The translations under genes and the position numbers were made by a program. DNA of 20,808 nucleotides from a virus. Location of the stretch: positions 1 through 20,808 of the IMG/VR virus record IMGVR_UViG_3300032116_001563; one strand, written 5' to 3'. Below are positions 5,887-18,893 of this stretch, in pieces. Position 1 is the stretch's first letter; each line of letters starts with the position of its first letter. The notes under the pieces were generated by a model, which searched no databases, had not been told where the DNA came from, and saw only the letters and a list, made by a program, of their open reading frames with translations.

Positions 5887-7917
5887 TTAAACCACAGTCC
5901 AAGCAGAGCCGCTTGTAACCGTTACCGTGATACCTGAATTTACCGTCACAGGGCCAGCAGATAAACCGTTGTAACCGCTGGCTATCGTATAGTCTGCTGC
6001 AATAGTATTTGCATTGACAGTAATACCGTTAGTGGAAACCATCGCAGTAGACTGCAACTCACCTGTACTGGGCTTATACAGCAGTTTGGCGTTGCCAGTA
6101 TTTAGACTGCTAGCCGTACCGCTGGTGCTGCTTACAAATGTTGGATACAGATTGCTTGTGGTGCTTGTGTCATTAGAGATAGTGATACTTGTACCGCTAC
6201 TCGGCGTTACAAACGACAGGGTTCCAGAGCCATTGGTCTTTAATACCTGATCTGCCGTGCCGTCAGTAGTTGGTAGGGTGAACGTATTAACAAACGATGT
6301 TAGGTTGCTATCGTATGCTTGGACATCTGCGCCGATAGTCAGGCCAAGGGAGGTCTTTAGCGTAGCCCCTGATTCAACAACAAAGTTAGTACCGTTGCCG
6401 ATAATCACGCCATTGTCTGTTGGGGTCAGGCCAGCTACGTCAGCTAGTTGAGCATCGTATGCTTGGACGCTCACGCCAATTGCGGCAGACTTTAGAATGG
6501 TTGCATCGGCAGGTTCAAAGCTAGCTGCTGTGTATGTGCTGTCTTTAATCAGCTTGCCGGTTGTGCCATCAAACGCAACAAGTCGGTTATTGACCGCAGA
6601 TGCTGGGCCAACCACATCCCCGGTTCCAGAGCCTGCCGCACCCTTCTCAGCTAGCACATCCCAGTATGTTGTATTGGTTGGCAGGTTGCCGGTAGAGGCA
6701 AGCTTACAGATGTAGCTTGAGCCGTTGTAGCTTACTGCGTCATCAACTACATAGGATGTGCCGCCAGCATAAGCACCCAGCCAGTTCATACCTACCGGGC
6801 CGGTTGCCCCTGTTGCACCGGTTGCACCGGTTGCGCCTGTGGCTCCGGTAGCTCCAGTTGGGATGCCGAGAGTCAGCGTATATGTACCAGAGTTGTAAGA
6901 CGCTGTTGCGCTAGACCCCGGAGAAAGAGTGGTAGCTGTGGCCGTAAAATTGTTGGCCAGGTTGATCGATGCATTGCTAGCATTGGTTGCTGTAGTGGCA
7001 GATGATGCAGCCGAGGTTGCGCTGTTGGCTGCGTTAGTCGCTGCCGTGCTAGCAGTAGAGGCAGAACTTGCCGCTGCCGTTGCGCTATTAGATGCGTTGG
7101 TTGCGCTGGTGCTAGCAGACGATGCGCTGTTGGCCGCATTGGTTGCGGAGGTTGATGCATTAGATGCCGAGGTACTCGCGCTGCTAGCAGAACTTGCGGC
7201 ATTTGACGCTGACGTAGATGCAGCTGATGCGCTGGCCGCAGCTGCTGTAGCTGATGACCCAGCAGATGCGTTGTCTACAATCAAGTCCCACTTAGCAGAG
7301 TCGGCGTTAGTAGAGATAGGCTGCGATCCGCTAGACGTATGCGAGGTATTGGCGTAGTAGATGTTGCCGTTGCTGGTGTCTTTGACAATGTCACGCTTGT
7401 TATAAGCCGTAGCAGCTGCCCAATTACCACGGTTTTCGCCAATGGTTTCGCCGGTTGTTGGGTTTCCGCTAGCATCAAAAGCAAGGGTCTTATTGGCCCG
7501 TACAGTAGACCGTGGCAGGGTCATGCTGATACTGGTTGGGTCAGTCTGCGGAGCCTTCAGAGCCCGGTCTACGCCCTCTGCGTTCTGCTGGGCAAAGATG
7601 GTTAAGCTATCGAGCTCATCATTAATCGTATTGGCAAACAGGTCACCGCCCGTCACAAAGTCCGAGGTGCGCTGAATCGCCCGGTCACCAACGATGGCAA
7701 TCTGCGTGGCCCCGGTGGGGCTGGCCGTCAGGGTCACATAGCCAGTACCGTTGGTGTTGATCGTAACCGTGTAGTCCGTGGTCAGCGTCAGCAGGGTATC
7801 GTCCTTGTACACAGAGATATCTGTGTTAGCCAGGATCTCAAAGGTAAAGGAGTACGGCCCGGTGCCAGAGGCAGCGAGCACTACTCGGCGGGTGACGTTG
7901 CTAATAGGTACTGGCAT
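5887..7917 (-). CDS. T7-type tail fibre with Ala/Ser repeat and collagen-like run (676 aa)
   Basis: Residues 1-160 match the T7 gp17 N-terminal, tail-attachment type: MPVPISNVTRRVVLAASGTG, then ISVYKDDTLLTLTTDYTV and FANTINDELDSLTIFAQQNA. Around 163-212 a short module (WAAATAYNKRDIVKD to AKWDLI) resembles a CBM5/12-like fold, and a second copy lies near 375-420 (WLGAYAGGTSYVVDDAVSYN to YWDVLA). Between them, about 215-318, is a low-complexity Ala/Ser/Thr/Asn repeat, then five GAT triplets ending in GPVG, like a collagen helix. The C-terminal part repeats VQAYDAQLAD and VQAYDSNLTS, a known fibre repeat style. It should form a trimer on the virion. AGGA lies 7 nt before the ATG. It is the first and longest of four fibre-like genes, probably the one attached directly to the tail. 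Confidence 0.9.
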   Translation of the reverse strand: MPVPISNVTRRVVLAASGTGPYSFTFEILANTDISVYKDDTLLTLTTDYTVTINTNGTGYVTLTASPTGATQIAIVGDRAIQRTSDFVTGGDLFANTINDELDSLTIFAQQNAEGVDRALKAPQTDPTSISMTLPRSTVRANKTLAFDASGNPTTGETIGENRGNWAAATAYNKRDIVKDTSNGNIYYANTSHTSSGSQPISTNADSAKWDLIVDNASAGSSATAAAASASAASTSASNAASSASSASTSASNASTSATNAANSASSASTSATNASNSATAAASSASTASTAATNAANSATSAASSATTATNASNASINLANNFTATATTLSPGSSATASYNSGTYTLTLGIPTGATGATGATGATGATGATGPVGMNWLGAYAGGTSYVVDDAVSYNGSSYICKLASTGNLPTNTTYWDVLAEKGAAGSGTGDVVGPASAVNNRLVAFDGTTGKLIKDSTYTAASFEPADATILKSAAIGVSVQAYDAQLADVAGLTPTDNGVIIGNGTNFVVESGATLKTSLGLTIGADVQAYDSNLTSFVNTFTLPTTDGTADQVLKTNGSGTLSFVTPSSGTSITISNDTSTTSNLYPTFVSSTSGTASSLNTGNAKLLYKPSTGELQSTAMVSTNGITVNANTIAADYTIASGYNGLSAGPVTVNSGITVTVTSGSAWTVV
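6791..6865 (-). repeat. Collagen-like GAT triplet run in tail fibre
   Basis: Within the tail-fibre gene the minus strand encodes five consecutive Gly-Ala-Thr triplets framed by IPT and GPVG. The DNA units are imperfect 9-mers with varied third positions. Such Gly-X-Y runs in phage fibres can fold as a collagen-like triple helix. The run can change length by slippage. Confidence 0.8.
6950..7275 (-). repeat. Ala/Ser/Thr/Asn-rich coding repeat in tail fibre
   Basis: About 100 residues consist almost only of Ala, Ser, Thr and Asn in a loose unit like SASNASTSATNAAN. The unit is about 7 residues and imperfect, consistent with a trimeric coiled-coil or shaft spacer. Long antisense open frames over the same DNA arise from this composition and are not genes. 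Confidence 0.8.
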
Positions 7918-10900: not shown

Positions 10901-10999
10901 CGGCGGTTGAATCGCAGCCAGGTCAGGCTCCACCTGGTTGGACTGCTCAATCGATTTGGCCAGCGCATCTAAGCGTGTATCAATACCCTTGATAGCCAT
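7958..10999 (-). CDS. Large internal virion / DNA-ejection protein (1013 aa)
   Basis: The largest protein here lies between another internal protein and the tail fibre, where T7-like phages encode gp16-type ejection proteins. Residues 25-150 are Pro/Gln/Val-rich and probably flexible. From about 290 come blocks I know from many large phage virion proteins: VARALRSFRLPVDG, EMYTSSIMYSPATIERNLYG, RAMLAGDEFAKATVAQMETR, LAPFVKTVVNVEKELFKRTP and NPGWQPFSIK followed by VSYAGLEPIGGLIGMA. Moderately hydrophobic helices near 632-650 and 705-725 could insert in a membrane during ejection. The C-terminus is basic (KNQFRAKNKFLKEKREP). I see no lysozyme or transglycosylase motif. The ATG overlaps the upstream TAA by one base (TAATG). 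Role in ejection is inferred from order, size and these blocks. Confidence 0.82.
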   Translation of the reverse strand: MAIKGIDTRLDALAKSIEQSNQVEPDLAAIQPPQGGEPETEPVEVAGLGTVIEVIKAGVKPARKIPESMATGAELQEQVAKGAAELEKAQKPGLLAPKKKPKAQQPVTPPVEQIDNPVNVTTTGDVQTTAAVVDTQNVTQAAVPPKQLVIETANPIQSVKFLSGADAPEVGIDFNFNYIQTPEDIHKAINDVSRVFAQNTDIAKRGVLSDEAVKDMAARLNIVPDIIKAGVGTTFNAEQMLAARELLVRSASKLDELTKRVKGLGPNKEDDALLLEFRNQLATHAAIQMTVKAAQTEVARALRSFRLPVDGTTGIGDPAAITTLLNESGGRLNLKQMAEAFDTLSMEERARFVQMSGGAWKNLGSIWKEMYTSSIMYSPATIERNLYGGMIMNLTRGFDTAFAATAGRAIDKPIEIVFGSKSSDRVYASEAAIELANFFLAVPKAFKAGIKAFKTDTPQYAGKDADKVPMPALSSRLFADPNTPTAQAVDFMGKAIRLPFRAMLAGDEFAKATVAQMETRRLAARQAFLAIDNGVPVDQAIDGMVVQIANPDAKILQRVDDSVKEATFQSDMGQIGNTMLMVRNRLGPVGTVLAPFVKTVVNVEKELFKRTPFAPVMKEVRDELAAGGARRQMALGKMAMGSSLMGWMMYETLDGNISGAGPTDPKRREFLRQTNPGWQPFSIKMSGSIFGIDLPESMANKWVSYAGLEPIGGLIGMAATLAEVGSVYAKDDDSDWTDLMLYAALVPFKYVGELPFMSGMANLTSLIEELKRDPTGERASAAANKFFGGIAQNFPAGMVPIPTPAGALIRQIETTIDPTQRQVRVDPSLPADEKYFDFLYRTWAAKTFSSGAPTRNVWGKEVQQDVGAIYWILPFYRKDSELDTIDKKIVELARITGKQPISLPERNVANIAMNDAEYSDLILTMNKITVEGRGYKQAVAEVLSSGETASDLAARRYQGPVDRLSKIKEDFKEMAFQDPGFQAKYPDLVKNVMKNQFRAKNKFLKEKREPVED

Positions 11000-11178
11000 T
11001 ATCCAAGTCCTTTGTTCATCGCGGCCAGGTCAGCAACATTGATAGCGGGGCCTTGTGTAGACGGGTCTCCACCGGCATCCCACCAGTTAGCAAACTCCAA
11101 ACCATCTTGCATATATTCTTGCGCCCCAGGAAATTGCTGGAGGAAGTCTTCTTCATTTAGCTCAAAGTCAGTAATCAT
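10999..11178 (-). CDS. Small acidic protein (59 aa) between two ejection proteins
   Basis: The ORF reads MITDFELNEEDFLQQFPGAQ at the start and ends in AINVADLAAMNKGLG. Its ATG overlaps the TGA of the 729-residue gene by four bases, and its TAA overlaps the ATG of the 1013-residue gene by one base, so it exactly bridges the two. It is strongly acidic in the first 15 residues and contains FANWWDAGGDPST. There is no membrane segment. A small acidic protein next to large virion proteins might be a chaperone, linker or minor virion component; I recognise no family. Perfect packing on both sides is the main support for its reality. Confidence 0.75.
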   Translation of the reverse strand: MITDFELNEEDFLQQFPGAQEYMQDGLEFANWWDAGGDPSTQGPAINVADLAAMNKGLG

Positions 11179-13364
11179 TGGGTTGCCCTTTCTGTGATCT
11201 GCTCACCTGTTTCCATAATGGACGGGGTTTCTTGGCCGTCCGTCTTGAGCATAATAGCCTCTCTCTTCTGGCGCGGGATAGTCACCTGGGTGCCAAGCTT
11301 GGGATCATATTGGACAAAGAATCCATTGGAATCCTGTGCGGCCATAGATTCCTTGCGAGTCATAGCCTTATTCTTTAAGCCAATAATCACCCCATCAAAC
11401 CCAGCAGGCTGGGCATCCATCGGACGGAAGTCATAGGCATCCCCATCAACTACTCGGTAAATTTTGCCAGTAGCCTCATCTAGCACAGATTCAGGTAGAC
11501 CCTTCTTGCTGCTAAATGCCATTGCCACGTTCTGGCCATCATCAAGCCATTGGCGCATTTGCATCCAATTGGAATGCGGATTGTCAACGTCTACGGTCAA
11601 ACCGTTTTGGCCAGCTTTTTGAGACAGGCCGGTAGAGCTGTAAGTGTAGTGATGGTTTGGCGCAATCGGGCGGTACTTCATCTTGGTGTAGTCATAGAAG
11701 AGAACATCTGGGTTGGCCTCGATGATCGACTTGTAGACCTTTGGATCGATGTCGGAAAGCACGTTCAAGCGGATAGCCAGGGCATTGCCATTCTTGGCAG
11801 CTGCGGTCTTTAGCGACAGGATTTCATTATTGAGCTTGATGGCAAACGCCTCTGGCTCGCGGAACATAGCCTGGGTCATCCTAAAGCTCCGCAGGCGGGT
11901 TCCTTTCATAGCTTCCAGGTCTGCCCCTCCACCGTAGGCAAAGTAGCCGCCAGAGGTCTTGCCAAGGCATTCCTGGGCGCAGCTGGCAGAATTTGGGCAG
12001 GTGCTGAACTTGCCAACTTTAAATGCCGGTGAGATGGCCAGACCGGCACTCTCAATGTTGCGGCCATCTGGAAGCTCAATTGGAACCCCGCCTTCCACGC
12101 CGGTCTCGGTCTTGAGAAGTTTTCCGTTGGTAGTAAGCAGACGTTTTGCGCCGCCATCCTTTGCCGTACCAAGAATCGGAGCCAGCCGCTGGTCTGCAAC
12201 CATAGCTGCATTCTTGAGGTTGGTTGGATCAAGGGTCTTGATCCAGGCCATTGCATCATCAAACGATTTGGCAAAATACTGGGTAGATGGCTCAACCGGA
12301 AAAGGCTGTGCAATTAAATCCTTGAATGCCTGGTCAGAATATATCTGCCCTTTAGGAACATTTTCAGACACATATTGTTTTAATTCTTTTTGCTGCTTGC
12401 CTGTTAATTTTGTTCCTGTTTGTTTTTCAACAGCCTGGATCATTTTGGTTGGTGACATATTTGATGCAATGCCATCCGAAACAATTTTTTGAGCTACTGA
12501 TAATCGTTCTGGGTCAATGTTAGTTAATGCGATTGGCTTAACAACATCTGGGGCCTTCAGCGTAATAGCACCAACCGGAGCGGTAGTCATTACTTGCTGC
12601 GCCATTTCTTTAATAGCTCTAGACCCAGCTCTAATCCCTTTGGCCGCCAGGAACGGGTCAGCCACCAAACCACCGGCAAGCTCTCCACCGGCTGCGGCCT
12701 TCTCACGCATTGCCATATCAGTAGTAACGCCAGGCGGTATTACTGGTGGCAATATCTTGCTGCGCTCTATATCCTCGGATGTCGGCAGTAAAGTAGGAGA
12801 TTCAAACGCCGCAGCTGCGCGGCTAATTCGATCCATAAAACCACCGCCCTGCCGGTCTGTGGCAAAGCGTCCAATAAACTCAAATAGCTGCTCAACGTCC
12901 CCGCCAAACCCCAGCGTAGATTTAACGCCGCCGCGAGCAATGCCAGCCATGCCGTCCACAACAATCTTGCCCATCTGTGCCGGGCTCATGGTTTCAGCGT
13001 CAGCTGGTAGCGTCATGCCGCCCTGGGCCAGGAACTCGTCTAGAGCTGACGGCTGCTCACCGGCAACCTCTTCTGGGGGCGTTGGCTGGCCAACTCCAAC
13101 GATATCAATACGCAATGGTTTCTCTTCTGTTGCGTCCGTGGCCGTGGTGGCCGGGCCAGCTGCCAGCTGAATTGCCGGGCCAACCCCAATCAGCCTGCCA
13201 TCGTCACCCTTGAGAAACACGCCTTCAAAGCCATCCTCATCTTTGATGGTTACAAAGTCAGGGTCACCTTCAGCTGCACGTTGAATATAGCCATCGCGCA
13301 CGCCAGGTATAGACATTGTTTCGTCAAAGAAATAAACGTCATCTACACGGCTAAACTTAATCAT
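11175..13364 (-). CDS. Internal virion protein with C-terminal GP88-like domain (729 aa)
   Basis: The N-terminal 380 residues look like a phage virion protein: a beta-type start (MIKFSRVDDVYFFDETMSIP), an acidic/Pro linker at 70-120, then helical segments, with KMIQAVEKQTGTKLTGKQQK near 307-326. From about 385 the protein changes. Cys456-x5-Cys462-x3-Cys466 (STCPNSASCAQECLG), RLNVLSDID at 532-540, VLFYDYTKMK at 554-563, NHHYTYSSTGLS at 570-581, and DGDAYDFRPMDAQPAG at 640-655 followed by VIIGLKNKA match the layout of the mycobacteriophage gene-product-88 family (GP88). The GP88 function is not established; the cysteines could hold a metal or cluster. The start is ATGA-coupled to the upstream gene, with GGTG just before it. 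The position among ejection proteins suggests the domain may enter the host with DNA, which is inference. Confidence 0.82.
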   Translation of the reverse strand: MIKFSRVDDVYFFDETMSIPGVRDGYIQRAAEGDPDFVTIKDEDGFEGVFLKGDDGRLIGVGPAIQLAAGPATTATDATEEKPLRIDIVGVGQPTPPEEVAGEQPSALDEFLAQGGMTLPADAETMSPAQMGKIVVDGMAGIARGGVKSTLGFGGDVEQLFEFIGRFATDRQGGGFMDRISRAAAAFESPTLLPTSEDIERSKILPPVIPPGVTTDMAMREKAAAGGELAGGLVADPFLAAKGIRAGSRAIKEMAQQVMTTAPVGAITLKAPDVVKPIALTNIDPERLSVAQKIVSDGIASNMSPTKMIQAVEKQTGTKLTGKQQKELKQYVSENVPKGQIYSDQAFKDLIAQPFPVEPSTQYFAKSFDDAMAWIKTLDPTNLKNAAMVADQRLAPILGTAKDGGAKRLLTTNGKLLKTETGVEGGVPIELPDGRNIESAGLAISPAFKVGKFSTCPNSASCAQECLGKTSGGYFAYGGGADLEAMKGTRLRSFRMTQAMFREPEAFAIKLNNEILSLKTAAAKNGNALAIRLNVLSDIDPKVYKSIIEANPDVLFYDYTKMKYRPIAPNHHYTYSSTGLSQKAGQNGLTVDVDNPHSNWMQMRQWLDDGQNVAMAFSSKKGLPESVLDEATGKIYRVVDGDAYDFRPMDAQPAGFDGVIIGLKNKAMTRKESMAAQDSNGFFVQYDPKLGTQVTIPRQKREAIMLKTDGQETPSIMETGEQITERATQ

Positions 13365-15016
13365 TGCCCACCCCTTGGTCTTCCAGCTTGCTGCTGCCCA
13401 CCAGGCTGAGTGCCAGCCCTTCTAATATTTTGTCGATAGTTTTCGACAGCTGTTTTGGCAGCAGATATATCATCTGTTGATGCAGGCTTTGGTTTGCGGT
13501 TTGCAGCTGCCGCAAATGCCTGGTTAACAGCAGCCTCATTCATAAGATCAACACCGGCCAATTCTTTTAAGAACATCTCAGCGGCATTTTTATTTCCAGC
13601 TGCGGCCTTGTTAAAAATTGGAGACATCTCTTGCTGAAGATTTCCTTGTAGCTCATTGCCCTTTTCTCTAATTTGGGCATCTGACGGGTATCTTCCATTT
13701 TCGTCCGGGGTGTTCTTAAATTTAATCAACTCTAGTTTTGATTTGTTTACAGCATTGACCGCAGCTGCCCTGCCCTCGGCAGAAGTAATTTCTGGTGGCA
13801 GGTTTGCGCTTTGGATTCCAACCGTTAGGTCAAGAATACGATTGGCCTCATTCATTGCATCGTTTGGATTGGCAATCTGTAGGGCAAGGGATTTGGTTGT
13901 AGATTTGGTTAGCTTGCCTTGGTTTGATACCAGCTCATTTACAGACAGCTCGCCCCTGGCCGCCTTGCCAGACAAGTCAATTAACGTGCGAATGTCATCG
14001 GTAGATGCGCCAGACTGATCGCTATTAATATATTCTCTAATTGATCTAATCTTAGATGGGTCTAATGGCAAGTCTTGCAATAATCCATATAGCCGTGTTT
14101 GCTCTTTTGGATCGTTGCTATTCATAATCTTACGAATGATTGGGTCAGCCTCAAGATTGGCGTTTGTGTATTGCGCCTCAATGCCTTTTTTGACCATTGC
14201 TGTTCGCTGGTCAATCAACTCAAATAATGCCTTGCGCTCATCAAAACCCATGTTTTTCCATTGCTCGGCATATTTGCCTGCATTATTAGCATTGAGTTTT
14301 AAAATCATTTCTGTACCAGTTCCGCTTGGGCTAAATTCTGGTGACGTAAAGTACTCGGCCATCGCGCTATTGCGAGCGTTGGTGGCCATCTTGTCGTACT
14401 CGCCACCAGGTGCCATGTATTTGTTATAGCTTGATGGATTGTTGTAGGCTATTCCAGATATTGTGCTTCTTAACCTGTCTTGGAATGCTTGTAGTTCTTT
14501 TGGATCTTCTATTGTTTGCCAGGCGTTTGATAAAGCAACCTGATTAGATTTAATAGCTTGGTCTGTAATTCGGTCTCGTTCCGTTCCATAAACATCTGTT
14601 ATTAGTTTATTGCTTTTGTTAAGCAATGCTTTACCAGACTGAGTAATTGAGTTCATCAACCCAGCTGCCTGGTTAACATCTACTTTATAAAGTTCTGATG
14701 CGTAACCCTGCAAAGATTTAACCCTAGACTGAATCTCACCAAAGTCGGCGAGCTTGCCTATGGTGACATCTCTGTCAATGAGTTCCAGTTCCTTTGCAAC
14801 TGCCGCCTCAAGGTCGGCTCGCATCTGGATGCCAAGGATTTTGTTTTGCTGGTCAGCTCTTTCCTTAGCCTCTCCAAAAGCAAATTGCGCCAGCTTGTCT
14901 AGTGACGATCCAATGCCCTGCTGAATGCTTACTTGAGCAGCAAGGTTGGCCGTGCTGATAGTAGGCACATCTGCCGAAACTACGCCTGATTCTTGGTATC
15001 TAGGAACGCGAGCCAT
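13361..15016 (-). CDS. Internal virion / ejection protein (551 aa)
   Basis: The protein begins MARVPRYQESGVVSADVPTI and has a helical N-terminus (SSLDKLAQFAFGEAKERADQ), a pattern common to podovirus internal virion proteins that follow the tail tubular genes. It is almost wholly alpha-helical with many Asn, Gln, Lys and Glu and has no membrane segment, signal peptide or visible catalytic motif. The C-terminus is Gly/Gln-rich (GTQPGGQQQAGRPRGGQ). AAGG lies 6 nt before the ATG. It sits between a gp14-like and a GP88-containing protein, as expected for a component of an internal core that is ejected with DNA. The exact T7 counterpart (gp15 or similar) cannot be settled by eye. Confidence 0.78.
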   Translation of the reverse strand: MARVPRYQESGVVSADVPTISTANLAAQVSIQQGIGSSLDKLAQFAFGEAKERADQQNKILGIQMRADLEAAVAKELELIDRDVTIGKLADFGEIQSRVKSLQGYASELYKVDVNQAAGLMNSITQSGKALLNKSNKLITDVYGTERDRITDQAIKSNQVALSNAWQTIEDPKELQAFQDRLRSTISGIAYNNPSSYNKYMAPGGEYDKMATNARNSAMAEYFTSPEFSPSGTGTEMILKLNANNAGKYAEQWKNMGFDERKALFELIDQRTAMVKKGIEAQYTNANLEADPIIRKIMNSNDPKEQTRLYGLLQDLPLDPSKIRSIREYINSDQSGASTDDIRTLIDLSGKAARGELSVNELVSNQGKLTKSTTKSLALQIANPNDAMNEANRILDLTVGIQSANLPPEITSAEGRAAAVNAVNKSKLELIKFKNTPDENGRYPSDAQIREKGNELQGNLQQEMSPIFNKAAAGNKNAAEMFLKELAGVDLMNEAAVNQAFAAAANRKPKPASTDDISAAKTAVENYRQNIRRAGTQPGGQQQAGRPRGGQ

Positions 15017-15025
15017 AATTAACCT

Positions 15026-15631
15026 TTATCCGTACCACGGGTTATCAGCAGTTCCACCAATCGGCCCGTACATATCTAAACCGCCAGGTGTTGCACCCGG
15101 AGCTTTTGGCATTCCCTTTCCAGCTGTTGCTGTGGCCATTAAAAGCTTGGTGGCTGCATCTAGCTTTCCAGCCTGGCGAGCTGCGGCACCAGCGGCCATA
15201 CCTGATTGAAGAGCAATATCACCGGCGCGGAAAGCGGCAGCGGAATCGTCCATGTAAACCATAAACTCTCGCCCGGCAGCTGTTTCGTTTGCAGCTCGCA
15301 CCACATCTACTGATCCGCTAAATGGATCGATGCCGCCAGCATAGCCTTTGGCTGCCAAGTTAGACTGTGTGCGCTTTAATTTCTCTAGGGTCTGGTTGGC
15401 CTTTTGCTGGTACTGGATTGCCCGGCGGTCATACTGGGTTTGCTCTAGTCTTCCCTTGAGCTCCAGCTGCTTGCCCTGGATCTGGCCCTGCTGGTATGAG
15501 CTGTAAGCGGACATAACAGATGCGGCCACAGCTGCGGCGGTAAATGGATCGTTTTGGATCTTGCTTGATCCAGGCGGGTTGTGTGGGTCACCAAGCGGTA
15601 GCCCGTGGACGTTGATATCAAATCTGTTCAT
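15026..15631 (-). CDS. gp14-like internal virion protein (201 aa)
   Basis: Residues 28-50 are Ala-rich (DPFTAAAVAASVMSAYSSYQ), followed by a long helix with many Gln, Lys and Arg (GKLEQTQ-like spacing, QYQQKANQTLEKLKRTQSNL), then GYAGGIDPFSGSVDVVRAAN. This order is typical of the short internal virion protein (T7 gp14 / internal virion protein B type), which is thought to help form the channel across the outer membrane. The C-terminus is Gly/Pro-rich (PKAPGATPGG). The ATG is one base after the TGA of the tail tubular B-like gene. Size is close to the T7 protein (about 196 residues). The call rests on pattern, order and size. Confidence 0.8.
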   Translation of the reverse strand: MNRFDINVHGLPLGDPHNPPGSSKIQNDPFTAAAVAASVMSAYSSYQQGQIQGKQLELKGRLEQTQYDRRAIQYQQKANQTLEKLKRTQSNLAAKGYAGGIDPFSGSVDVVRAANETAAGREFMVYMDDSAAAFRAGDIALQSGMAAGAAARQAGKLDAATKLLMATATAGKGMPKAPGATPGGLDMYGPIGGTADNPWYG

Positions 15632-15632
15632 G

Positions 15633-17633
15633 TCATGCCCCAGGGTATGTAGATATCTTGTACTCTAAACCTAGCAAAGTCATCTTTAGCGGAATAGTTT
15701 GCCTAATAGTGATCTTACCTTCTGTCGTATATCCGAGAATGCTGTCGATAGTTTTTGTGCCAGTAAAGAGAGGTACGGGGTCATCGAGTGTGTCTCCTGT
15801 GTCAAAACTTCTAAAAGGTAATTCGTTGTCATTGACAATCAAATGCTGGGTGTCTTTGACAATAGCGTTTACTTCAATAATTCGTTTCTGGTAGGCGAGC
15901 CTGGTGCCAGCTGCAATCTTGATGTCTGCTGGCATGGTGACCGCCTGGGTAGTAAAGTTAAGACCTACCTGGTATGAGCTAGTAGCTGATCGCGGGAATG
16001 TCACCGTGCCGCCACCAGGTACTGTCTGAGCTGCCTGCACCGCGCCATCTAAAACAACCTGCACAGACTTGGCAACAAGGTGGGACATCGATACAGACGC
16101 AGCTGCGCCGCCAGACTTGGCGCAATCAAGTTGGAGGCTATCATCGAATACCTCAACGTAATACTGAGTCGTACTATTTATCGTACGTTTCACCACCGTA
16201 TAAATAGTTGTAAGGTCTACGCCAACATCGATGTATTCACCATCGGTTGTAAACTCGGACGGCGCAATTACGTTTTGCACTCGCAACATAGAAAATGCAG
16301 CGATTGTTCCACCTGTGCTGTTAACGATAAACAGTAAATCATTTTCATCGGTAGCTACTGACCGGCGCAGAGCCATCCTTGTGGGAGACTTTAGTAAATG
16401 GCCAGCCAGTAGCGATATCTTGCTTGTAACGTAGGTCAATTGCGTGTCTGTAAACGCAAACTCATTGAGTGACTTTCCCTGCCGCTGCAAAAATAGCGTG
16501 CCTGATTCAAGCTGCTGGACACGGACACCCTCTTTGGCACCATTGCGGGTAACCGCCTTCATAAAGAAGTTGGTGGGCGTGATTGGCTCCAGCCCCTCTT
16601 GTGGGCAATAAAACTCACCGCCTGTTGTAAAGATTTGCAGGTCTCGGCCAGAGGTTACATCGACAATTGCGTTAAAGGTGTTGGTGTCTAGCGTAGCCTC
16701 CACCGCATCATCGTCCAGACCTTCGGTTGGCTCAAAGTCAAAGAATAGCCCTACCTTAGAACCCCATACGGTTGATGGCCGCGACTTAGACCCGGCAAAG
16801 AAAAGCCTGCCCTCATGGAACGTAACCGAGCGTGGCCACCCTTTTCCAGATGACCACACAGCCTCGTATCCGGATTCGTAATCCCATGAGCCACTTGCAA
16901 TAGCAGAGGTGTTAAAAAACGGAAACTCAACTATTGCGTCAACTACCGTGGCACTTGTGTATTTGACTATCTTGGCCCTACCCTGGGGGCTGGCGTTAAC
17001 GTATTGGCCAACTGATGCCGCGCTAAACGGCGTGCCGGTTGAAGCTGTCAACGTAACCTTGCCAGAAACGGCAGACGGAGTCAGGGTGCCAGCTGGAGTA
17101 GATATTGATACGGTAAACGCATACTTTGGAATGCTATCGAATGACAGCGTGCTTGCAGTCCAGGCAGAATCGTTGGCACCGCGAACAATCTTTACCGGGT
17201 TAATGTCCTGGTGGCAGACAATCAAAGTATCTGCTGACTGTGTCCAAGTTAGATTGGCTAGCCTGGCACCAGTAAGGCCATATGAGCTGGTGTCTAGGTA
17301 ATCGTTTGCCCCTGCGTTGATGGCCAGCTGCTGAACGGCGTTTTTAAAAACATACATCCGATTGTGGGTAAAGCAGAGCATATAACTATCGGACGTAGAG
17401 AACTCAAACGGAACCAGGCGTACCCCATTGCCAGCGGAATCGGAACCCGCATTTGGCAGCGACATAATGTACTTAGAGCCCGGTCTGCGCCTAATCCCAC
17501 CCTGGGGCTGCACCACCACGTTGGTGGCCTCCTCAAGGGCGTTAGCGTAAGCCTGTAGGTCAACCCTAGCCCTCAACAGGGGATCGAGCTCCCCGGTTGA
17601 GAAGTTAGTTTGGATTGACGTAAAACGTGCCAT
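15633..17633 (-). CDS. Tail tubular protein B-like, podovirus tail nozzle (666 aa)
   Basis: The N-terminus MARFTSIQTNFSTGELDPLL followed by RARVDLQAYANALEEATNVV and VQPQGGIRRRPGSKYI is the recognisable start of podovirus tail tube / stabilisation proteins of the T7 gp12 type. RLVPFEFSTSDSYMLCFTHN and WTQSADTLIVCHQDINPVKI continue the same beta-rich, propeller-like pattern, with VTFHEGRLFFAGSKSRPSTV near the middle. In the virion it forms the distal tail nozzle below the tail tubular A ring. Its ATG shares one base with the TGA of the A-like gene (TGATG), so the two are coupled. Length is normal for the family (about 650-800 residues). Confidence 0.88.
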   Translation of the reverse strand: MARFTSIQTNFSTGELDPLLRARVDLQAYANALEEATNVVVQPQGGIRRRPGSKYIMSLPNAGSDSAGNGVRLVPFEFSTSDSYMLCFTHNRMYVFKNAVQQLAINAGANDYLDTSSYGLTGARLANLTWTQSADTLIVCHQDINPVKIVRGANDSAWTASTLSFDSIPKYAFTVSISTPAGTLTPSAVSGKVTLTASTGTPFSAASVGQYVNASPQGRAKIVKYTSATVVDAIVEFPFFNTSAIASGSWDYESGYEAVWSSGKGWPRSVTFHEGRLFFAGSKSRPSTVWGSKVGLFFDFEPTEGLDDDAVEATLDTNTFNAIVDVTSGRDLQIFTTGGEFYCPQEGLEPITPTNFFMKAVTRNGAKEGVRVQQLESGTLFLQRQGKSLNEFAFTDTQLTYVTSKISLLAGHLLKSPTRMALRRSVATDENDLLFIVNSTGGTIAAFSMLRVQNVIAPSEFTTDGEYIDVGVDLTTIYTVVKRTINSTTQYYVEVFDDSLQLDCAKSGGAAASVSMSHLVAKSVQVVLDGAVQAAQTVPGGGTVTFPRSATSSYQVGLNFTTQAVTMPADIKIAAGTRLAYQKRIIEVNAIVKDTQHLIVNDNELPFRSFDTGDTLDDPVPLFTGTKTIDSILGYTTEGKITIRQTIPLKMTLLGLEYKISTYPGA

Positions 17634-18247
17634 CAGTTCCTCACATCGATCAAGCTGTAATCTTCAATCACAGAGATTGGCTGGCCCTGGCCATCGATAG
17701 TGGTGGCTGTACGCATATACCCACCCCGGCCATTTTCTGACGCAGCTCCAATAGCAATCTGCTGCCAGTATTGTGTTTTGTCGATCTGGTCTGTAATTGG
17801 CAGAGACAGGTGCCAGGCCATCATGTACTTGAGCAGCTGCACAAAGTAGACCGGCATCTCGTACTCTTGGACGGCATAGGGATAGTCGGCGTAGATGGTT
17901 GTTTCGTTGGTGAGCAGCTTGTCTTGGAATATTCGGTAGGCTTTAATCGGCCTGGCACCAATAGCGTTGGTAACAAATACCTGCCTGGGAGGCCCAATCC
18001 GATCACCTGGCAACTGGTATTCGTACCTGTACTCTGTGGTTGGCGTAGTAATTAGCTGAGATAGCTGAATCTTTTTGTAAACAAAAGACCACGGATAATT
18101 TAAAAGTGTTTGATTTTTGATGTCTGGGTATAGTCGATCACATACATTGGCTGCGTTGGTTCCCTCGTTAAACGATGAGATAGCCTTGGCACCCAGCATC
18201 AAGAGAGCGTCTGAACAAATTGATAGTGCGGAATCACCTGCTGCCAT
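17633..18247 (-). CDS. Tail tubular protein A-like, head-tail adaptor (204 aa)
   Basis: The protein begins MAAGDSALSICSDALLMLGA, followed by ISSFNEGTNAANVCDRLYPD and LLNYPWSFVYKKIQLSQL, the typical pattern of T7 gp11-like tail tubular A proteins (SxAlxxLGAxxIxSF, then NYPWxFAxK). It forms the ring that joins the portal to the tail nozzle. I start it at 18247 because GGAG at 18256-18259 lies 8 nt away; the upstream in-frame ATG at 18253 is only 2 nt from it. The gene overlaps the glycosyltransferase-like gene by 14 nt, and its stop overlaps the next start. Confidence 0.88.
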   Translation of the reverse strand: MAAGDSALSICSDALLMLGAKAISSFNEGTNAANVCDRLYPDIKNQTLLNYPWSFVYKKIQLSQLITTPTTEYRYEYQLPGDRIGPPRQVFVTNAIGARPIKAYRIFQDKLLTNETTIYADYPYAVQEYEMPVYFVQLLKYMMAWHLSLPITDQIDKTQYWQQIAIGAASENGRGGYMRTATTIDGQGQPISVIEDYSLIDVRN

Positions 18248-18893
18248 TTGCATTACTCCATATATCTCTTACCCAGCCACTTGAACCAGATCCTTTTGGC
18301 TCCCCATGAAAACAAACTACTTTTGCCTCATCTGGTTTTGGCTTGCCAAGAAGATGAAATTTGTATGAGAAGATTCTATTGGGGAATATCTGTTGCCACA
18401 AGCAGTCTGGCTTTTGATTCTTAGCAATAAAAGCCTGATCTCCAAGATTCAAGCTCCCAGAGTACATAGTCATATAAAACGATGGGTCTGACTTAAATGT
18501 CAGGTAAATGTGCGAATAGTCCCCGTTCCAGGCCATCATCCCGCTTGCCGGGGTATCGCGCTTGCCCAGGTCTTTGAGCATCGTGAACTTATGGGGATAC
18601 TCGGCCAGCTCGGTCAGGTCACCACAGATAACGGTATCGAGATCAAAGTAAAGCACCGGGCCATCAAATACCCAAGAGAAGAGCTCGATCTTAGACCACC
18701 AACCTGGCCACCCGTGCTTGAGCGGTATCCGCTCGCAGGGTACATCTACATCTGAGAAACAAACAAACCTATGGTCTCCAAGATTCTTGGCAACCATATT
18801 CATCAATCTTTCTACATCGGCTGGGGTGTAGGGTTCTTTGCCAGCTGATTGGCTAAAGCGGCCAGACTTGAGAACGCAGACAACAGTTAACAT
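18234..18893 (-). CDS. Glycosyltransferase-like protein with DxD motif (219 aa)
   Basis: This protein starts MLTVVCVLKSGRFSQ and has WWSKIELF followed by VLYFDLDTVICGDLTEL. The Asp84-x-Asp86 pair in a hydrophobic strand is the DxD metal/nucleotide-sugar site of GT-A fold glycosyltransferases of the GT8-like kind. GDQAFI (151-156) and VVCFHGEPKG (192-201) match other conserved blocks of phage proteins annotated this way. It would transfer a sugar from a nucleotide sugar; the acceptor is unknown and could be virion protein, phage DNA or host surface. I start at 18893, where AGGAG lies 4 nt upstream, not at an in-frame ATG at 18986 that lies inside the previous gene. Its presence inside the head-tail operon is unusual. 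Confidence 0.8.
   Translation of the reverse strand: MLTVVCVLKSGRFSQSAGKEPYTPADVERLMNMVAKNLGDHRFVCFSDVDVPCERIPLKHGWPGWWSKIELFSWVFDGPVLYFDLDTVICGDLTELAEYPHKFTMLKDLGKRDTPASGMMAWNGDYSHIYLTFKSDPSFYMTMYSGSLNLGDQAFIAKNQKPDCLWQQIFPNRIFSYKFHLLGKPKPDEAKVVCFHGEPKGSGSSGWVRDIWSNANGSR

Follow-up and report, generated by a model that had tools for sequence, protein, structure and literature searches.

The locus and its neighbouring genes

The window, by which we mean the whole stretch of 20,808 bases analysed from one virus record, carries its main genes on the minus strand, in the order tail genes, a gene at the position of T7 gp14, a 551-residue protein, a 729-residue reading frame, a 59-residue reading frame, internal virion protein D and tail fibre (Table 1), and the same order from tail to fibre is retained in relatives. 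The 729-residue protein combines an N-terminal module, here called the carrier, with a C-terminal domain of the GP88 family, here called the cargo. The earlier note had taken it for a probable ejection protein, and a location among ejection-protein genes is borne out by the adjoining gene, whose 1013-residue product has tblastn matches to podovirus proteins annotated as internal virion protein D. Searches of Pfam and PHROG gave no family match for the 551-residue protein at the gp15 position. The phage is short-tailed, with a T7-like ejection operon whose proteins are probably injected together with the DNA. A plus-strand reading frame at 11959-12492 and further overlapping ones were discounted as genes. 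The tail fibre, at 5887-7917, has a carbohydrate-binding module (CBM_5_12, E=7.9e-8) adjoining collagen-like sequence.

Table 1. Features of the ejection-gene region, in positions of the window
Feature	Position	Strand	Basis or remark
Two tail genes, 666 aa (PHROG 376) and 206 aa (PHROG 394)	15633..18253	(-)	PHROG matches
201-aa internal virion protein, gp14 position	15026..15631	(-)	PHROG 418, E=6e-5
551-aa protein, gp15 position	13361..15016	(-)	Position
Carrier-GP88 ORF, 729 aa	11175..13364	(-)	ATG overlaps stop codon of upstream gene
N-terminal carrier module, residues 1-285	12510..13364	(-)	Common to slot ORFs with other cargo or none
Linker, residues 286-390	12195..12509	(-)	Co-inherited with GP88 (70-99% identity); carrier meets cargo near its start
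GP88 cargo, residues 391-715	11220..12194	(-)	Pfam, PHROG, structure model (pLDDT 85)
Cys456, Cys462, Cys466	11967..11999	(-)	Candidate metal or Fe-S ligands after first predicted barrel strand
59-aa ORF accompanying GP88 cargo	10999..11178	(-)	Overlaps GP88 stop (ATGA) and internal virion protein D start (TAATG)
Internal virion protein D, T7 gp16-like, 1013 aa	7958..10999	(-)	PHROG 6651, E=1.9e-21; tblastn

The GP88 domain

The 729-residue protein is a genuine member of the Pfam GP88 family: PF17338 matches residues 436-667 (positions 12059-11364) with E=5.4e-18 and 66.1 bits against a cut-off of 24.4, and PHROG 1617 matches with E=1.4e-31. Membership had been proposed in the earlier note, whose cysteine pattern (C456-x5-C462-x3-C466) and motifs (VLFYDYTK, NHHYTYSS and DGDAYDFRP) are all found in our translation, the cysteines at the residues given. 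The change in sequence character that it saw near residue 385 is real, but the unit associated with GP88 starts earlier, near residue 286-290. Profiles from Pfam, PHROG and NCBIfam recognised no second effector domain in the window protein besides GP88.

Among 91 aligned diverse relatives, 91 have Cys456, 90 have Cys462 and 91 have Cys466, the spacing C-x5/6/7-C-x3-C is found in 90, and K415, R532, N534, D538, N570, S576 and D645 are invariant; FYDYTK was the pattern used to retrieve these relatives, so that its invariance arises by construction and carries no independent weight. The window copy retains every residue invariant in a diverse set of 14, and the family-invariant residues present in it are the three cysteines, R532, N534, D538, Y557/Y559, S576 and D645. 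In more distant pairs, residues 391-715 have a pS of 0.69-0.79, which is near saturation, against a pN of 0.05-0.08. The GP88 cargo is under purifying selection and is conserved as a protein.

A slot for exchangeable cargo

Related loci were fetched through internal virion protein D and the carrier, and at each of them we compared the reading frame lying directly upstream of the former gene, with cargo families matched on representatives and then extended by blast clusters. All 40 of the internal virion protein D loci used for the tree encode the N-terminal carrier, which spans about 160-285 residues. The cargo at these loci is GP88 at 12, DUF7178 (PF23802) at 11, an ART-PolyVal-like domain at five, other types at five and nothing at seven. 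Three of the five matches to ART-PolyVal (PF18760) lie above the cut-off (67.9-82.4 bits) and two below it (25.9 and 30.0), and the other types consist of one marked by the motif EVQSDWH, at three loci, and two single ones. The former, which has no confident Pfam match, carries EVQSDWH followed further on by GGEGMKGFYD (L277, 3393-5498; L278, 2637-4820; L282, 2946-5138), and no convincing family match was obtained for the single cargoes (L223, 3641-5998; L238, 7587-9983). L238 has tail and gp14-position genes 92-97% identical to those of the window, with cargo and internal virion protein D replaced (about 23% identity) and a recombination junction inside the 551-residue gene, near residue 313. 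An apparent class of loci with no slot gene proved to be an artefact of choosing the longest upstream reading frame; those loci encode carrier-only proteins.

Different cargoes are found next to nearly the same internal virion protein D. For instance, L279, L277 and L284, in which this protein is 96-98% identical, carry GP88, the EVQSDWH domain and DUF7178 respectively, the carriers of L277 and L284 being 91% identical and their cargoes unrelated. A similar pair is L268 and L269 (98.7% identity in internal virion protein D), where one is carrier-only and the other has ART cargo. Cargo labels placed on the internal virion protein D tree call for at least 15 changes, with at least six forced for GP88 by well-supported branches; the trees were made by a quick method with SH-aLRT support only, and this one contains some long branches. 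Conversely, the GP88 domain of the window is 88-92% identical to that of phages with which it shares only 21-25% identity in internal virion protein D. By these comparisons, cargo has been exchanged recently between related phages.

The join between carrier and cargo was placed near residue 285, because two relatives (L003 and L004) are 97-100% identical to the window over residues 286-715 and only 73% over residues 111-285. The latter segment has a pN of about 0.5-0.6 in the same more distant pairs as above; the carrier evolves fast, and a pattern scan was precluded by the divergence of its alignment. When parts of the carrier were compared by tblastn with the phage collection there was no significant match to phage isolates, and as for known ejection proteins, PHROG gave no match outside GP88 and tblastn none that was significant.

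A companion of GP88 cargo

The 178 nucleotides that separate the GP88 stop from internal virion protein D do not vary in length at GP88 loci and encode a protein of 59 residues. This reading frame is present at the window-type GP88-cargo loci that cover the stretch (shortened at two contig ends) and occurs in both lineages of internal virion protein D, and among the loci compared tblastn with E up to 1 found none where window-type GP88 cargo is lacking. Its pS is 0.57-0.89 against a pN of 0.11-0.16. Because of this co-occurrence and constraint, the 59-residue protein is a companion of window-type GP88 cargo, for which escort, inhibitor and immunity protein are candidate roles. An RNA element in the gap was considered and rejected, since Rfam gave one sub-threshold match, judged to be chance, and the gap is the conserved reading frame itself. 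The earlier note had overlooked both this gene and the exchangeable-cargo architecture.

GP88 in other genomes

By tblastn, 190 phage records have a match to the GP88 part only, and the homologues that we fetched are mostly stand-alone proteins of about 230-300 residues, in agreement with the earlier note. The stand-alone gene lies within about 2 kb of the start of the record in HTVC115P, HTVC134P, Lo5R7ANS, CRP-143, HMO-2011, HTVC024P, HTVC035P and HTVC309P, with the terminase/maturase gene on one side and the RNA polymerase gene on the other in Bylgja and MedDCM-OCT-S46-C10, and near the right end of the genome in the mycobacteriophages examined. These are early-transcribed regions; HTVC023P, Limnohabitans DC31 and jumbo phages are exceptions. 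Few bacterial genomes contain GP88 (3 of 199 in one order), none was found in the plasmid collection, and a PADLOC search for defence systems gave nothing convincing. Several similar GP88 genes are found on Planctomycete chromosomes (L114-L116 and L121), with two each in TBK1r and Rhodopirellula SM50, and these possibly lie on mobile elements.

Further fusions, those of L034 and L035/L036, fall in the same clade as the window GP88 (SH-aLRT 100). The protein of L034, downstream of terminase and portal genes, has an ART-PolyVal-like match (below cut-off) and GP88, and that of L035/L036, 2657 residues long and downstream of a match to a DNA-ejection protein, has ART-PolyVal and GP88. In gp272 of the Tunturiibacter phage Tunturi_5 (L017, 7350-8687) an InPase domain precedes GP88, and at least two disparate effector domains occur in one polypeptide in L034, L035 and L017. 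This gp272 is annotated as a ‘minor head protein’ and adjoins a 1490-residue reading frame. Outside the virion-fusion clade, a 1319-residue reading frame (L045, 4771-8727) has GP88 in mid-protein. The literature searched, which covered few subscription papers, yielded no description of GP88 as a radical-SAM protein or as an injected effector.

Predicted fold and the conserved cysteines

Structures were predicted for the GP88 domain of the window (pLDDT 85, pTM 0.85) and for a stand-alone member (pLDDT 95, pTM 0.91). When the stand-alone model was compared by VIA-align, ranks 1-16 were all radical-SAM enzymes (Z 5.0-7.2, rmsd 4.2-6.3), the first fold of another kind following at Z 4.8, although values of Z below 8 are suggestive only and may reflect a mere common arrangement. 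The best entry was pyruvate formate-lyase activating enzyme (Z 7.2, rmsd 4.4, 165 residues), and others were QueE (6.4), spore photoproduct lyase (6.3), SuiB (6.1), viperin (6.0) and TYW1 (5.3). A similar picture emerges for the window domain, whose top five entries are QueE, SuiB and a sactipeptide enzyme, at Z 4.6-5.1. Foldseek gave no significant match in the PDB for either model, the GP88 profile matched nothing meaningful among PDB sequences, and no radical-SAM profile of Pfam or NCBIfam matched GP88 proteins.

Comparison of the GP88 profile with the PF04055 alignment gave a weak score (P=0.09). With DUF5131 the Cys, S-D and T-K motifs fall in register (P=0.005, HHalign probability 7%), and the score exceeds that of all 60 of 60 column shuffles; DUF5131 proteins in turn match the NCBIfam model ‘radical SAM mobile pair protein A’, below the strict cut-off of that model. 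The canonical CX3CX2C motif is absent from GP88, which has C-x5-7-C-x3-C instead, and GP88 has not been filed as a radical-SAM member because of this non-canonical spacing. Non-canonical cysteine spacings do occur in some radical-SAM members. On the models, GP88 likely has a radical-SAM-like fold.

Discussion

We consider, with a probability of roughly 0.7, that the 729-residue protein is an ejected carrier with an exchangeable, early-acting C-terminal effector of radical-SAM-like fold. The N-terminal 285 or so residues would serve for entry into the particle, alongside the gp14/15/16-like core proteins, and for exit when infection begins. The GP88 domain, whose fold is probably a radical-SAM-like alpha/beta barrel carrying the three conserved cysteines, would then act in the newly infected cell ahead of all phage gene expression. 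Stand-alone GP88 probably does the same job in other phages as a first-expressed gene, that is, host takeover or counter-defence, and the 59-residue protein is probably an escort of GP88 or a restraint on its activity while still in the producing cell. The virion location, delivery, cofactor, activity and target of GP88, like the role of the small protein, are what we infer. Delivery into the host with the DNA becomes more likely, because the same carrier bears ART-like, other or no domains at the same slot in relatives; the ART and GP88 virion-module proteins of L034 and L035, and the stand-alone genes at genome starts, were also counted for an ejected effector. A [4Fe-4S] cluster, if present, would need to survive in the virion or be rebuilt after exit.

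The location of GP88 in the ejection operon and its strong conservation would also suit a domain that serves the ejection machine structurally or by contacting DNA and catalyses nothing in the host. We regard this as quite unlikely, given that the C-terminus is dispensable, being absent from carrier-only proteins, and replaceable by other domains, some of them ART-like enzymes, and that GP88 genes mostly stand alone and lie outside virion modules. The reading frame belongs to the late gene block, as would be expected if the protein were packaged or made late and acted in the producing cell, in lysis, superinfection exclusion or late metabolism, and not in the next host; the stand-alone relatives at the early end of genomes, the other effectors fused to the same carrier and the related GP88 domains of L034 and L035 in virion-module ART fusions make such a role improbable.

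It is possible, though we doubt it, that the three cysteines hold zinc or another structural site and that GP88 is some other type of alpha/beta enzyme, which would leave delivery unchanged. The unusual spacing, the lack of a significant Foldseek match and the weak PF04055 comparison point that way, and are countered by the 16 best VIA alignments and the five best for the window domain, all to radical-SAM enzymes, and by the in-register, if weak, match to DUF5131 with its own link to radical SAM mobile pair protein A.

Giant polyvalent proteins, and single cases such as T4 Alt, make up most of the injected phage effectors known. The notable result here is that a T7-like ejection operon holds a slot for exchangeable cargo, and that GP88, conserved and accompanied by a partner, is one of the cargoes. 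Such a slot suggests a plug-in site for delivery of different host-modifying proteins, and a short carrier with plug-in cargo is a candidate signal for particle loading. As DUF7178 and several unnamed domains share the slot, its position alone could list effectors of new kinds. GP88 itself, a common phage family without a function, would be tied to early host takeover and gains a testable fold and cofactor, and the finding points to a small partner protein for it. We would give even odds to the broader view that the T7-like ejection operons of these phages hold a standard delivery slot, in which a conserved carrier brings one or another of several interchangeable effectors, in some cases with a partner, into the capsid, the radical-SAM-like one being first-expressed in other phages, the earliest infection step thus being shifted from gene expression to the particle.

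With radical-SAM enzymes such as PFL-activating enzyme, QueE, SPL and viperin, GP88 may share a predicted partial barrel with three cysteines after the first strand, and it has a weak profile match to DUF5131, which is linked to rSAM mobile pair A; it differs from the former enzymes in its spacing and in matching no PF04055 profile, and is not known to have an activity. The stand-alone Pfam GP88 proteins of mycobacteriophages, Pelagibacter phages and HMO-2011 share all family-invariant residues with the window copy, over a profile match of 232 residues, whereas the window copy is fused to a carrier in an ejection operon, has longer loops and is accompanied by the 59-residue reading frame. Gene order and a gp16-like neighbour are common to this operon and T7 gp14/gp15/gp16. 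Carrier-GP88, which comes as an additional gene after the gp15 position and before that of gp16, has no T7 counterpart by PHROG or tblastn. Polyvalent proteins have InPase and ART among their effector domains, and their injection was inferred by the authors from gene context (PMC5512222); ‘gp88’ does not occur in the text of that paper. The GP88 reading frame of the window is encoded among virion genes. Polyvalent and MuF-type injected effectors (PMC5512222) and phage T4 Alt likewise place an effector domain in a virion-module protein, and the ART-PolyVal domain described there can also fill a slot of the window type. In contrast to these systems, the carrier of the phages studied here is a dedicated one within a T7-like ejection operon and bears either one exchangeable effector or no effector at all.
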